Notes under the pieces: generated by a model | Database searches by the model: none | What the model was told of the DNA's origin: nothing | Seen by the model: only the letters and a program-made list of their open reading frames with translations | Translations under genes and position numbers: made by a program | Origin: a virus | DNA: 42,181 bases | IMG/VR virus record: IMGVR_UViG_3300049460_000024 | Location: 1-42,181 of that record | Reading direction: 5' to 3' (one strand) | Shown: piece after piece, positions 15,870-37,032 of the stretch | Layout: every line of letters begins with the position of its first letter | How positions within the stretch are numbered: position 1 is the first letter of the stretch

Positions 15870-16337
15870 TTAGTTCTTTCCCATTGATCGTATTGTCTTC
15901 ATCCATTGCAATGCTTTGCGGAGTTCTGCTTCTTCGTCAATTTCATCTTCTTCCTTCTCAGGAGAATATGGCGCTGGACGTTGCGGGTCAGTGGCGCGAG
16001 AATACTCTGCGCAATATGCTTCTGACATTTTGATGATTGTTTCTTTTTCCCAAATGGAGAGTTCTAGTTTATTTTCTAATCTCCATGCTCTCAATTTCTC
16101 CCAATCCAAAGGGATCAAGCCCATCCCTGTAGATGTAGCCTGCCCACTATGAAAAAAAAGCTCAAGCAATGAGCTACAAGCCGGATCAATTTCTGGCATT
16201 ATGGCTTCTGCTTGAGCTTCATTGTCATCGCCAGATTTGAGAGCTTCTAGGCGGGATTGTTTTTGTTCGGTAGGTGTTGCACCATACCAACCCAACTGCT
16301 TGCAATAGAGTAGGAGACTTACTCGGCAGTCTTCATA
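15870..16337 (-). CDS. Tail assembly chaperone, frameshift extension (gpT-like part)
   Basis: This frame is the -1 frame relative to the gene ending at 16319. It has no usable start: the first possible codon (TTG at 16295) lacks a ribosome site and lies inside a protein-like segment (LLLYCKQLGWYGATPTEQ) that begins upstream of it. It is therefore best read as the extension of a fusion made by -1 frameshifting, adding about 155 residues to the first 128 of the upstream gene (about 283 in all). Such G/GT pairs coat the tape measure during tail assembly. The extension is acidic, with EKEEDEIDEEAELRKAL near its end. Confidence 0.8.
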   Translation of the reverse strand, partial: YEDCRVSLLLYCKQLGWYGATPTEQKQSRLEALKSGDDNEAQAEAIMPEIDPACSSLLELFFHSGQATSTGMGLIPLDWEKLRAWRLENKLELSIWEKETIIKMSEAYCAEYSRATDPQRPAPYSPEKEEDEIDEEAELRKALQWMKTIRSMGKN

Positions 16338-16720
16338 AAAGAAAGAGGATTTCCAATGAACTCTTGCACCTGATCACGAATCCATGCTACACTCTCATCT
16401 GCATACAGTGTTTTGAATTGTTCTGGAGTGGAGATTGGTTGTTCGTCTTCATCTACAAAGTTGGAAGTAGACACAGACAGAGCTACGAGGAAGTCCAGAG
16501 ATTCTTGGCGTTTTTCTTCCAGAGTAGATTCACGTTTGCCACGTTTGTTTGCTTTGGTCATCAGAGCGTCTACAGCTTTACGATGCTTGGCACTTGCTTG
16601 CCCGTACATGGTAATGCTCACTGGTTTATTTTCGACCTCTAGTTCAACGCCCGTTTCAGGGTCTACCAGATTCAGAGTTGCGGTTTCTTCGTATACTTTA
16701 GTTTTATAGTTAAATGCCAT
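16319..16720 (-). CDS. Tail assembly chaperone (gpG-like)
   Basis: A 133-residue protein between the tail-tube region and the tape measure, the normal place of the lambda gpG-type chaperone. The N-terminus (MAFNYKTKVYEETATLNLVDPETGVELEV) is beta-rich. The rest is helical and charged (MTKANKRGKRESTLEEKRQES). The ribosome site is AAAGGAATCTAC. A fraction of ribosomes is expected to shift near codon 128 into the -1 frame to make the longer product. Identification is by order, size and the frameshift arrangement. Confidence 0.82.
   Translation of the reverse strand: MAFNYKTKVYEETATLNLVDPETGVELEVENKPVSITMYGQASAKHRKAVDALMTKANKRGKRESTLEEKRQESLDFLVALSVSTSNFVDEDEQPISTPEQFKTLYADESVAWIRDQVQEFIGNPLSFMKTAE
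16337..16340 (-). other. Probable -1 ribosomal frameshift site
   Basis: On the minus strand the zero-frame codons are CTT TCT TTT ATG AAG ACT GCC GAG TAA. Four Us at 16340-16337 let the P-site tRNA-Phe re-pair after slipping back one base, giving Tyr (TAT) next. The -1 frame is open only from about 27 bases further upstream, so the slip must occur in this short interval. No X-XXY-YYZ heptamer of the lambda GGGAAAG type is present. The exact site is inferred. Confidence 0.55.
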
Positions 16721-16748: not shown

Positions 16749-17708
16749 TTATACTGCTTGTTGCTCCGAGCTATGTTGCTCGTTTAGTTGTAGAAATAGC
16801 TGTTCAATGTGAAGTCTTGCTATTTCTGGGTCAAGGTCATAGAAGCACTCTGTACTTCCTGAGAAAGAATGTTTTGGTTGGTCATACAGTTTGCGGAAGT
16901 GTTTTAGTGATGTTTGTTCCAACTCTAAAATAAATCCACCATTCTCAGAATACATGGTATGATAAACTGCGAAGTTTAAACCTGATTTTCTGTTTATGTC
17001 TCTTAGTCTACCTAGAGATGGGAGTTTGTTTGTGATGCCTATTTTGGTCAAGTCACCATCTTGCAGAATATAGAGATGGGATGGAGATAATCTATCGTAT
17101 CCATGTTGAGCACAAGTTGTACAACCTCTTCCGGCCTTGTGGCTACCTGCTTTTATTTTAAACACTCCGTGAGCAGGGCATGTAACTTTCATCAGAACGT
17201 CTTGTCCTTCGTAGCTGTCACAGTATTCGTAAGTGTAGAAATTTGCGTGGGTTTCTTTACAGTCAACCAACCATTCATCTAGTGTACTTCGGCGCTTAAT
17301 GCTTCGCTCTACTAAGCTGCACTTTTGACAGCTATGCCCTAGTTTGTGATTTGATGCGCGAACTTTAAATTCGCCGTGGTCTGGGCAAACTACCGTTATT
17401 TTACTCTTATTACCCATATTCTGTGGTAAGATGTATGTATATTTGTTTGAGTAGATTTCACCAAACTCTTGTAACCACAACTCTTTAGACTTCTTCCTAG
17501 ATGTGATACAACGTTCAATCCCACACTCCCGACAACCATACCCACTCTTGTGACCAGAGGGTGTTATAAGAAAATCTCCATGAATGGAACAAGTCACAAT
17601 GGATTTTTCTTTAGCTGTCTTGTACACAAACTTTTCATATGTGTACTTACCTTCAAACATTTGTTCAAATTCCTTGATTCGTTTTGCAACGTCTACTACA
17701 ATGCTCAT
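16749..17708 (-). CDS. Free-standing homing endonuclease, zinc-finger repeats plus GIY-YIG-like domain
   Basis: A DNA endonuclease that would cut related genomes lacking it and be copied in by repair. The 319-residue protein has three similar units: CSIHG...GHKSGYGCRECG (40-63), CPDHGEF...NHKLGHSCQKC (108-130) and CPAHGVF...SHKAGRGCTTC (177-199). Each has a C-x2-HG start and C-x2-C end, likely zinc-binding DNA contacts. From 211 the block HLYILQDGDLTKIGITN resembles the GIY-YIG-type nuclease core. It sits between the tail-tube gene and the chaperone genes and is not a virion gene. Ribosome site AAGAAAGG. Its leader has unusual structure. Confidence 0.82.
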   Translation of the reverse strand: MSIVVDVAKRIKEFEQMFEGKYTYEKFVYKTAKEKSIVTCSIHGDFLITPSGHKSGYGCRECGIERCITSRKKSKELWLQEFGEIYSNKYTYILPQNMGNKSKITVVCPDHGEFKVRASNHKLGHSCQKCSLVERSIKRRSTLDEWLVDCKETHANFYTYEYCDSYEGQDVLMKVTCPAHGVFKIKAGSHKAGRGCTTCAQHGYDRLSPSHLYILQDGDLTKIGITNKLPSLGRLRDINRKSGLNFAVYHTMYSENGGFILELEQTSLKHFRKLYDQPKHSFSGSTECFYDLDPEIARLHIEQLFLQLNEQHSSEQQAV

Positions 17709-17770
17709 AAAGCCTTTCTTATTAAGTCTATATTATAAACGGAATAAGAGAGGCTTTACGGTTCCTCTCT
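17708..17770 (-). promoter_or_regulatory. Two competing hairpins in the endonuclease leader
   Basis: On the minus strand AGAGAGG (17770-17764) can pair with CCTCTCT (17753-17747). Alternatively TAAAGCCTCTCT (17758-17747) can pair with AGAAAGGCTTTA (17719-17708) over 11 of 12 positions. The second structure covers the ribosome site AGAAAGG and reaches the first base of the start codon. The two are mutually exclusive because they share CCTCTCT. This looks like translational control of the endonuclease; pairing is seen in sequence, function is inferred. Confidence 0.6.
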
Positions 17771-17773
17771 AGG

Positions 17774-17802
17774 AAACAAAAGAGACACAAACAGTGTCTC
17801 TT
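17774..17802 (-). terminator. Terminator after the major tail protein gene
   Basis: AAGAGACAC (17780-17788) and GTGTCTCTT (17794-17802) form a perfect nine-pair stem with a five-base loop. On the minus strand it is followed by TTTGTTTCC. It lies between the tail-tube stop (17848) and the endonuclease gene. It would trim tail-tube mRNA and limit read-through into the endonuclease. Confidence 0.82.
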
Positions 17803-17812
17803 AGATATAAAG

Positions 17813-17841
17813 ATTGTACCACACAATCAAACTATCGTCAA
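17813..17841 (-). promoter_or_regulatory. Putative promoter directly before the terminator
   Basis: TTGACG (complement of 17836-17841), 17-base spacer, TACAAT (complement of 17813-17818). Transcription would start near 17806, only a few bases before the terminator stem at 17802-17780. The first thing made is thus the hairpin, with the endonuclease gene behind it. An attenuated private promoter is the simplest reading. Confidence 0.65.
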
Positions 17842-17847
17842 GTTTCC

Positions 17848-18306
17848 TTACACTGTGATGATCGAATTGTCAATATCAAAAGTGAAGTTAAAACCCAAAA
17901 TCTGGTCAGCCGTGCCAACGTTTGTTTGATTGGTTGTAACAATACCTGTGAAATAGTCAGTTTGGCCTAGTGCAGCGGGATATACAATCTTGCAAGGGGT
18001 GGACAGACGCGACGTAAAGGCGGTACGTACGCCATCAAGTGCGGAACTTGTACTACGGGCACCCGTGAGTTGCAGAGTACCATAGTTCACAGAACCAGCA
18101 CGTTTTACGACGGCAGCGGTATCAACAGGGATGTGGTTAACCACAGTGGTTGTGCCACCAAGTTGACCAATGTTTGTAATGTCCGGCAAAATTTGCCAAG
18201 AAAGTGCGGCGAAGCCCGCTGCATCGTATGTTGCAGGAGTTTGTCCAACAGCCAAATAAACTTTAGTTGTTGCACTGGTCATCGCCAAAGAAGTTGCTAC
18301 AGGCAT
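17848..18306 (-). CDS. Major tail (tube) protein
   Basis: A 152-residue beta-rich protein (TTKVYLAVGQTPATYDAAGF near the start, QTDYFTGIVTTNQTNVGTAD and FNFTFDIDNSIITV at the end). It follows the tail terminator and precedes the chaperone pair, as tube proteins do. The ending, with a short beta hairpin after a tyrosine-rich segment, resembles lambda gpV-type N-domains without the Ig-like extension. It polymerises into the tube. A strong terminator follows, consistent with high expression. Ribosome site AAAGGAAATATAAT. Confidence 0.82.
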   Translation of the reverse strand: MPVATSLAMTSATTKVYLAVGQTPATYDAAGFAALSWQILPDITNIGQLGGTTTVVNHIPVDTAAVVKRAGSVNYGTLQLTGARSTSSALDGVRTAFTSRLSTPCKIVYPAALGQTDYFTGIVTTNQTNVGTADQILGFNFTFDIDNSIITV

Positions 18307-36184: not shown

Positions 36185-36213
36185 TTGACAAATGACTCTC
36201 TGGGTGCTATTCT
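36185..36213 (+). promoter_or_regulatory. Promoter embedded in a terminator hairpin (for phoH)
   Basis: TTGACA (36185-36190), 17-base spacer, TATTCT (36208-36213) with TGC directly before it (extended -10). The spacer and -10 are the 5' arm and loop of the hairpin at 36194-36222. Transcription would start near 36220, beyond the stem, so new transcripts escape the terminator that stops upstream ones. Confidence 0.75.
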
Positions 36214-36225
36214 CAGAGGGTCTTT
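36194..36225 (+). terminator. Terminator of the 35.6-36.2 kb operon
   Basis: GACTCTCTG (36194-36202) pairs with CAGAGGGTC (36214-36222) over nine positions with one G-U, with an 11-base loop, followed by TTTAATTATTT. The U-run is short, so termination may be partial. Confidence 0.68.
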
Positions 36226-36249: not shown

Positions 36250-37032
36250 ATGTCGAAATCAGCGAGTCGTTTTACGCGGAAAAGTAAGATTGATAAAGAA
36301 GTGCCCCCTGTACACAAAGATAAATTTCAGGAGGAAACGGCCTCACAACCCGTAGTGCCTAAATTTGAGGCAAAGACACAGAATCAGAAGCTTGCACTTG
36401 CCTATTTGCGAGAGGGTAAAACTGTTGTATCCCTACAAGGTAGTGCTGGTGTGGGTAAAAGTATTCTCGCTGCTTTCTGGGCTAGTACACAACTGAAGCA
36501 GAAGAAAGTAGAAGAAATTATCCTTATTCGCCCTAATATTTTGAATGGTAAAACAATCGGCCTGCTTTCAGGAGACGAAAAGCAGAAGCTTGAGCCGTTC
36601 ATGGCACAAACAATGGCACACTTCAAGAAGTTCCTCGGCACAGCATACCTCACATACTGCGTAAACAAAGGAATTATACAAACTCGTGCATTTGAATATG
36701 TTCGCGGGCGTTCTTTTGAGAATTGCATTGTCATAGTTGAAGAGGCACAAGGACTCACGCCAGAAGAGTACGAAACACTTCTTACTCGTGTTGGAGAAGG
36801 AACACAACTAATTCTGACGGGTGACAGCAGGCAAATTAATAAGGGCTTCAACACAGGAATGGACGTTACGTTCAAGATGATTGAAGACGCTGTGCAGAAT
36901 GAATATGATTTCTTGGATGATGAAGACCTTGATTGTTTGAATGATTCTGTTGGTGTTGTGCACTTCACGCCAGATGATATCCTGAGAAGCGGTTTCTGCC
37001 GAGCTATTGTGAAACTATACTACTATAAATAA
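36250..37032 (+). CDS. phoH: PhoH-family ATPase
   Basis: 260 residues. A RecA-fold ATPase of the PhoH family, common in phages; a role in RNA or phosphate-stress metabolism is suspected but not settled. Walker A is GSAGVGKS (64-71), the Walker B-type block is IVIVEEAQG (160-168; usual D-E is E-E here), and the sensor block is TGDSRQ (190-195). IRPNILNGKTIGLLSGDEKQK (93-113) is a further family block. The N-terminal 40 residues are basic and disordered. It is followed nine bases later by a ClpP-like protease. Confidence 0.93.
   Translation: MSKSASRFTRKSKIDKEVPPVHKDKFQEETASQPVVPKFEAKTQNQKLALAYLREGKTVVSLQGSAGVGKSILAAFWASTQLKQKKVEEIILIRPNILNGKTIGLLSGDEKQKLEPFMAQTMAHFKKFLGTAYLTYCVNKGIIQTRAFEYVRGRSFENCIVIVEEAQGLTPEEYETLLTRVGEGTQLILTGDSRQINKGFNTGMDVTFKMIEDAVQNEYDFLDDEDLDCLNDSVGVVHFTPDDILRSGFCRAIVKLYYYK

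Follow-up and report, generated by a model that had tools for sequence, protein, structure and literature searches.

A conserved competing stem next to a ribosome-site-hiding hairpin in the leader of a homing-endonuclease-type gene docked between phage tail genes

Hairpins that hide the ribosome site have been established for the endonuclease genes I-TevI, I-TevII, I-TevIII, segB and mobE, for which relief is ascribed to a promoter whose RNA omits the 5' arm (PMC2988022, PMC3014915). How selfish genes persist in strongly transcribed late operons without harm to the phage is a long-standing question, which has been answered mainly in T4-like phages. T5orf172 endonucleases with DUF723/CapR zinc fingers have been described for ICP1 and related vibriophages, in an article whose text does not contain the word 'hairpin' (PMC10448857).

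The sequence analysed here, referred to as the window, is a 42,181-base IMG/VR virus record, and all coordinates are those of the whole window. Its minus strand carries a block of tail genes in the order tail terminator, major tail protein, endonuclease, two small genes (one of them chaperone-like) and a long ORF of tape-measure size, which agrees with the initial annotation, where a gene of homing-endonuclease type had been placed among late genes, here those of the tail. The promoter, the terminator hairpin and the two stems of the leader, termed H1 and H2 below, were likewise all found on the minus strand where that annotation had put them. The features of the locus are as follows.

15870..16295, minus strand: TAC2, a tail assembly chaperone-like gene (Pfam Phage_TAC_18, E=6e-6, slightly under the cut-off)
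16319..16720, minus strand: TAC1, 133 aa, the downstream neighbour of the endonuclease and a probable tail assembly chaperone by position, its place adjoining TAC2 being conserved in relatives
16749..17708, minus strand: free-standing homing-endonuclease-type ORF, 319 aa, with DUF723-like zinc-finger repeats and a C-terminal GIY-YIG/MUG113-like domain
17706..17760, minus strand: H2, a hairpin of 23 bp that encloses the SD-like AGAAAGG (17719-17713) and the entire ATG (17708-17706)
17747..17770, minus strand: H1, a competing stem of 7 bp, AGAGAGG (17770-17764) with CCTCTCT (17753-17747), which uses the 5' arm of H2
17780..17802, minus strand: intrinsic-terminator-like hairpin, 9 bp followed by the tail TTTTGTTT (-12.8 kcal/mol, z = -5.4, 0 of 200 shuffles as good)
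17813..17841, minus strand: sigma-70-type promoter, TTGACG-17-TACAAT with TG ahead of the -10 (10/12 consensus match)
17848..18306, minus strand: major tail protein gene, which adjoins the slot on the upstream side (match to PHROG 158, major tail protein, with E=4e-10)

The endonuclease ORF matches PHROG 681 'endonuclease' with E=2e-49, and its Pfam matches to DUF723 and MUG113 both fall slightly under the cut-offs. Five of its residues, Y213, K222, G224, R234 and E264, which correspond to the Y, KxG, R and E typical of GIY-YIG enzymes, show no variation among 12 relatives. The combination of zinc-finger repeats with a GIY-YIG-type domain, together with a polymorphic presence at one site that is filled in some related genomes and empty in others, is that of the DUF723/T5orf172-type GIY-YIG class. 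By family likeness the ORF is probably a homing endonuclease, and homing would be its expected activity. The predicted structure has a mean pLDDT of 84 and a pTM of 0.41; Foldseek found nothing in the PDB that matched it at E below 0.001, among PDB sequences a profile search with the endonuclease returned nothing significant, and TAC1 had no family match of its own. Elsewhere in the window, a 12/12 promoter with TG at 791 lies ahead of a plus-strand ORF (854-2713) that resembles adenosylcobalamin-dependent ribonucleoside-triphosphate reductases (TIGR02505, E = 8e-67, short of the curated cut-off), and a plus-strand promoter, TTGACA-17-TATTCT (36185-36222), overlaps an 11-bp inverted repeat (36194-36222), possibly an operator or a terminator, that precedes a PhoH-like gene (36250-37032).

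Relatives were obtained through searches with the capsid protein, an endonuclease profile and the tail protein, which yielded many contigs of one phage group, several of them 80-93 kb long. A search of viral contigs with the endonuclease alone gave no match, nor did a megablast against phage isolates, and tblastn of the tail protein against GTDB genomes found no relatives. In many of these related uncultivated phages, identified below by L numbers, the slot between the tail protein and chaperone genes holds diverse members of the endonuclease family, and in others it is empty; the window endonuclease shares an identity of only 25-36% with the other slot endonucleases. Comparison of the junctions shows that the endonuclease starts directly behind the foot of a hairpin, and that at the 3' end of the gene the DNA continues into sequence shared with empty slots.

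In H2, positions 17760-17751 pair with 17715-17706, with more pairs inward, and the hairpin has a computed free energy of -23.9 kcal/mol (z = -7.9) that none of 200 shuffles equalled. One fold of the leader had been proposed to hide the ribosome site and to reach the start codon, and H2 does so by enclosing the SD-like motif and the whole ATG, in a stable stem of the read-through RNA, as is the case for the SD and/or the start codon in leaders of the I-TevI/mobE kind. When a stretch from SD to AUG that is less than 0.25 unpaired is taken as hidden, 52% of the 29 slot endonucleases are hidden, compared with 5% among 300 long-leader controls (p = 2e-8), and the unpaired fraction of 0.07 in the window is the joint lowest among the 29 slot leaders. 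In a wider, earlier set of 70 endonucleases the proportion was 26%, against 3% of controls. The part of H2 that reaches across the start codon covaries (p = 5e-5; p = 7.5e-4 with ten distinct leaders). On the basis of these folding calculations, H2 probably represses translation of the endonuclease.

H1 and H2 are mutually exclusive, since both use 17753-17747. The same arrangement is present in 14 leaders including the window (type A), which have a three-arm build a' - a - a*, where a:a* is H2 and a':a is H1. Covariation was assessed by a swap test that pairs each arm with its own partner or with partners from other leaders; this alignment-free test was chosen because the arm lengths vary, and column-based covariation counts on A5/A6 were set aside, as the MAFFT columns go out of register where the arms contain indels. 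For H1 the arms gave -12.2 kcal/mol per leader with their own partners and -6.6 with permuted ones (z -6.7), and for H2 -18.8 against -11.6 (z -7.3), values that come from permutation among related sequences, which amounts to less than a full phylogenetic test, though near-copies make it conservative. The signal persists with nine distinct leaders, whose 20-nt a arms average 46% identity (z -5.2 for H1 and -5.7 for H2), and the result holds with the window left out, while no clear signal came from control regions displaced upstream by 28 and 56 nt or from the ORF start (z -1.4 to 0.6). As both stems covary, the two-state architecture is conserved. The claim of two exclusive folds is thereby borne out, including against the outcome that the initial annotation had itself named as counting against it, namely that neither stem would be conserved in related phages. 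An Rfam scan gave no match at the leader, its matches within the window being limited to two tRNAs, and known riboswitch families were rejected for the leader on this ground.

The hairpin on which the endonuclease gene is docked is also kept without it. Endonuclease-free slots in L131, L134, L139, L166 and L167 retain a hairpin with the H2 core, which in L131 reads TTCTTCTAAGCATTCTT...AAGAGTTTTTAGAAGAA, and the arms of such hairpins covary in the endonuclease-free relatives (z -4.2). Some leaders of an unrelated type, type B (L007, L019), retain the H2-core hairpin separately, upstream. Furthermore, the endonuclease-free L002, L005 and L155 have both H1- and H2-like stems, and the pair may therefore serve another phage function; the endonuclease-free slots with H1-like stems (these three and L003) could be either ancestral or places from which the endonuclease has been lost. 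Downstream of the tail protein gene, L003 and L158 have an endonuclease-free slot in which the H1 stem AGAAGTGCCGTAAAGCACTTCT persists, perhaps as a scar left by an endonuclease since lost.

The promoter, which had been called near-consensus, has counterparts at the matching position in relatives: one lies directly past the stop of the tail protein gene in L002, L005 and L155, where there is no endonuclease, and in L033 and L036, where there is one. Promoter-like matches are common by chance, a scan finding 6 in the window against 4.8 in shuffles. Because endonuclease-free relatives carry a promoter at the same place, it belongs to the phage and is not endonuclease-specific. Moreover, it lies upstream of both arms, and its RNA therefore folds like read-through RNA; in L033 and L036 the two RNAs are computed to be equally accessible. 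The proposal that the gene stands behind its own attenuated promoter does not hold, as the promoter occurs without the endonuclease and its transcript has both arms and an unchanged fold. A promoter placed to give a translated RNA without the 5' arm, the further mark of leaders of the I-TevI/mobE kind, is lacking in the window and is present in others such as L040. Both the hairpin and the promoter seem to have been supplied by the phage itself.

In the relatives, forming H1 leaves 0.43-0.77 of the stretch from SD to AUG unpaired, against 0.03-0.24 in the free fold, and H2 is favoured over the H1 state by about 3.0-9.5 kcal/mol. The corresponding difference in the window is about 11.5 kcal/mol, and with H1 forced the stretch is only 0.29 unpaired. 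For the passage from H1 to H2, barriers of just 2.9-7.1 kcal/mol were computed, on account of which H1 was rejected as a long-lived kinetic trap. Given the much greater stability of H2 and these low barriers, H1 alone cannot long keep the leader open, and since it would be no long-lived trap, a thermodynamic role appears to be favoured. The window leader is strongly biased to the off state and not balanced, because H1 lies some 11.5 kcal/mol above H2, and with so weak an H1 and so costly an opening the endonuclease should be almost fully off.

The reading that we favour, with a probability of roughly 60%, is that of a docked endonuclease with H2 as its default lock and H1 easing the opening of that lock. 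A free-standing GIY-YIG-type endonuclease gene would have docked on the 3' foot of a pre-existing phage hairpin between the tail-protein and chaperone genes, so that its SD and ATG came to lie in the 3' arm of the hairpin. H2 would then form in every transcript that crosses the gene, whether by read-through from the tail gene or from the upstream promoter, and translation would be off by default. The upstream arm a' would pair with the 5' arm of H2 to give H1, making H2 cheaper to open, with the freed arm being caught by H1 once a ribosome or another factor breaches H2, or before H2 closes on the nascent RNA. The resulting leak would be low and non-zero in the relatives and nearly shut in the window. 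This use of H1 for capture, and with it a small set leak, is what we infer from the computed energies. More tentatively, the two-state RNA of the tail-protein/chaperone junction might constitute a ready-made translational lock for many docked endonucleases, which the capture stem would turn into a switch that has a memory or a fixed degree of leak, not a simple on/off hairpin; this wider picture appears somewhat unlikely.

A simpler explanation is that H2 alone matters and that H1 in the window plays no part in regulation, being either a relic that has decayed or a short intermediate of folding. The window H1 is the weakest of the 14-leader set, with 7 bp and -9.2 kcal/mol (z = -2.3; 7 of 200 shuffles as good, which is marginal alone), shuffling of its upstream arm gives p = 0.26, and it lies 11.5 kcal/mol above H2 with a low barrier towards it. 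However, the pairing in H1 covaries among divergent leaders whether or not the window is counted, and the unrelated type B leaders show a similar overlapping upstream stem; a plain lock appears somewhat unlikely. We also consider it unlikely that H1 and H2 serve the tail protein or chaperone genes, through mRNA 3'-end protection, processing or termination, with the hiding of the start as a by-product of docking. Such a native role would suit the retention of the hairpin in several endonuclease-free lineages and of both stems plus the promoter in L002, L005 and L155, but not the covarying extension of H2 through the start codon in endonuclease-bearing leaders, nor the much more frequent hiding of start sites in sense-oriented slot endonucleases than in control genes.

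Control at the level of transcription, with the promoter and immediate terminator as the main element, perhaps under phage antitermination, and the leader folds as secondary, seems quite improbable. Among 14 promoter-like sites inspected in the window, that of the leader is the only one with a strong terminator at once behind, and the terminator, whose strength had been correctly read, has counterparts in the endonuclease-free L005 and L155, so that the promoter-terminator order is kept there and in the window despite different stem sequences. Nevertheless, L033 and L036 have the promoter without the terminator, and the module also exists without an endonuclease. The terminator (17802-17780) has no base in common with H1 (17770-17747) or H2 (17760-17706), and since its arms do not overlap with theirs there is no terminator/antiterminator exchange; an attenuator of that kind, which needs an arm in common with an alternative stem, was rejected. 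The attenuation put forward in the initial annotation is not sustained, the terminator occurring in only some promoter-bearing relatives and sharing no arm with H1 or H2. A relief of the T4/I-TevI type, in which a promoter inside H2 would give a late translated RNA without the 5' arm, is very unlikely for the window. An exact TATAAT is found in the H2 loop about 29 nt before the ATG, and other endonucleases of the family do have a promoter start inside the hairpin, yet on inspection this motif lacks a TG extension as well as a -35 hexamer at 16-18 nt, the window has 17 copies of TATAAT, and the copy in the loop is not conserved among the remaining 13 type A leaders. A promoter inside the window H2 was rejected for want of a -35 and of conservation.

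Across the family, a clade of similar endonucleases (support 100/100) mixes leader types A and B, and a sister pair at 99/97 consists of L086 (type A) and L079 (type B); judging by this tree, leader and protein assort independently. A T4-like promoter that starts inside the hairpin is present in L040, L059, L067, L016 (at 11135) and L019 (at 11135), a set that includes endonucleases of this slot as well as some beside the capsid gene, and endonucleases outside the tail slot with the promoter -10 inside the hairpin, as in I-TevI, were found in L016, L019, L067, L112 and L114, those at 11136 in L016 and L019 adjoining the 3' side of the major capsid gene. In L016 and L093 a group I intron match lies directly behind the endonuclease ORF. 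In isolate phage records, 8 of 12 endonucleases are on the strand opposite to their annotated neighbours and have more open ribosome sites (0.30-0.77), the twelve records being a small sample that was not randomly drawn; these open antisense copies fit with a need for a lock in sense-oriented copies. The antisense copies (L168, L169, L173, L174, L175, L177, L178 and L179) belong to Vibrio, Klebsiella, Salmonella and Edwardsiella phages, and twice, in Vibrio phage 1.285.O and Salmonella phage 9NA, they lie beside the major tail protein gene.

Possible pseudoknots were also observed. By eye, a further class of endonuclease leaders was noted in which the hairpin loop is complementary to a stretch adjacent to the SD, in L012, L016 (3711), L033 (2534), L093, L101, L109, L110 and L113, with the loop and SD-side sequences changing in step (CTACAC/GTGTAG; CTGTACT/AGTACAG in L109; CTCTACT/AGTAGAG in L033). 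In L072, L081, L061 and L108, three of which are near tRNA genes, an anti-SD lies in the loop of an upstream hairpin and may form a pseudoknot over the ribosome site.

One slot thus contains very different endonucleases under at least three leader designs, namely the three-arm leader without an internal promoter, a second overlapping-stem design and a T4-like promoter in the hairpin, and this variety amounts to a natural comparative test of translational silencing. The docking of the endonuclease gene on a phage hairpin suggests a way for a mobile gene to be silent from the outset, namely by making use of the RNA structure of its host.

Several known systems resemble this locus in part. The T4 genes I-TevI, I-TevII, I-TevIII and segB are alike in that a stable hairpin hides the ribosome site on read-through RNA (PMC2988022, PMC3014915). 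In the T4 leaders, however, a late promoter in or next to the hairpin gives an RNA without the 5' arm, whereas the window promoter is upstream of both arms; unlike them, the family of the window has a conserved second exclusive stem and a phage-derived hairpin core. The difference from I-TevI that the initial annotation had seen thus stands with regard to the second exclusive stem, and not with regard to the hiding of the ribosome site, which has also been published for I-TevII, I-TevIII, segB and mobE (PMC2988022). In that review, mobE of Aeromonas phage Aeh1 is likewise a free-standing endonuclease with a ribosome-site-hiding hairpin; it differs in that its product is of the HNH type, that it lies within a ribonucleotide reductase gene and that its promoter is arranged as in T4, and it is described there with no two-state leader (PMC2988022). 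The ICP1-type endonucleases share the modular zinc repeats, the GIY-YIG-type domain and the variation in presence and absence at gene boundaries (PMC10448857). Regarding the folds, the leader of the MS2 maturation-protein gene and the aapA3/hok mRNAs likewise pass through a transient alternative stem before a stabler ribosome-site-hiding fold, as discussed in PMC6733600; their genes and folds are different, and the low barrier computed here argues against a long-lived transient state unaided. No two-state endonuclease leader is described in the open-access literature examined. In computed terms, the leader is a ribosome-site-hiding endonuclease hairpin of the sort known elsewhere, to which a conserved competing stem appears to have been added.
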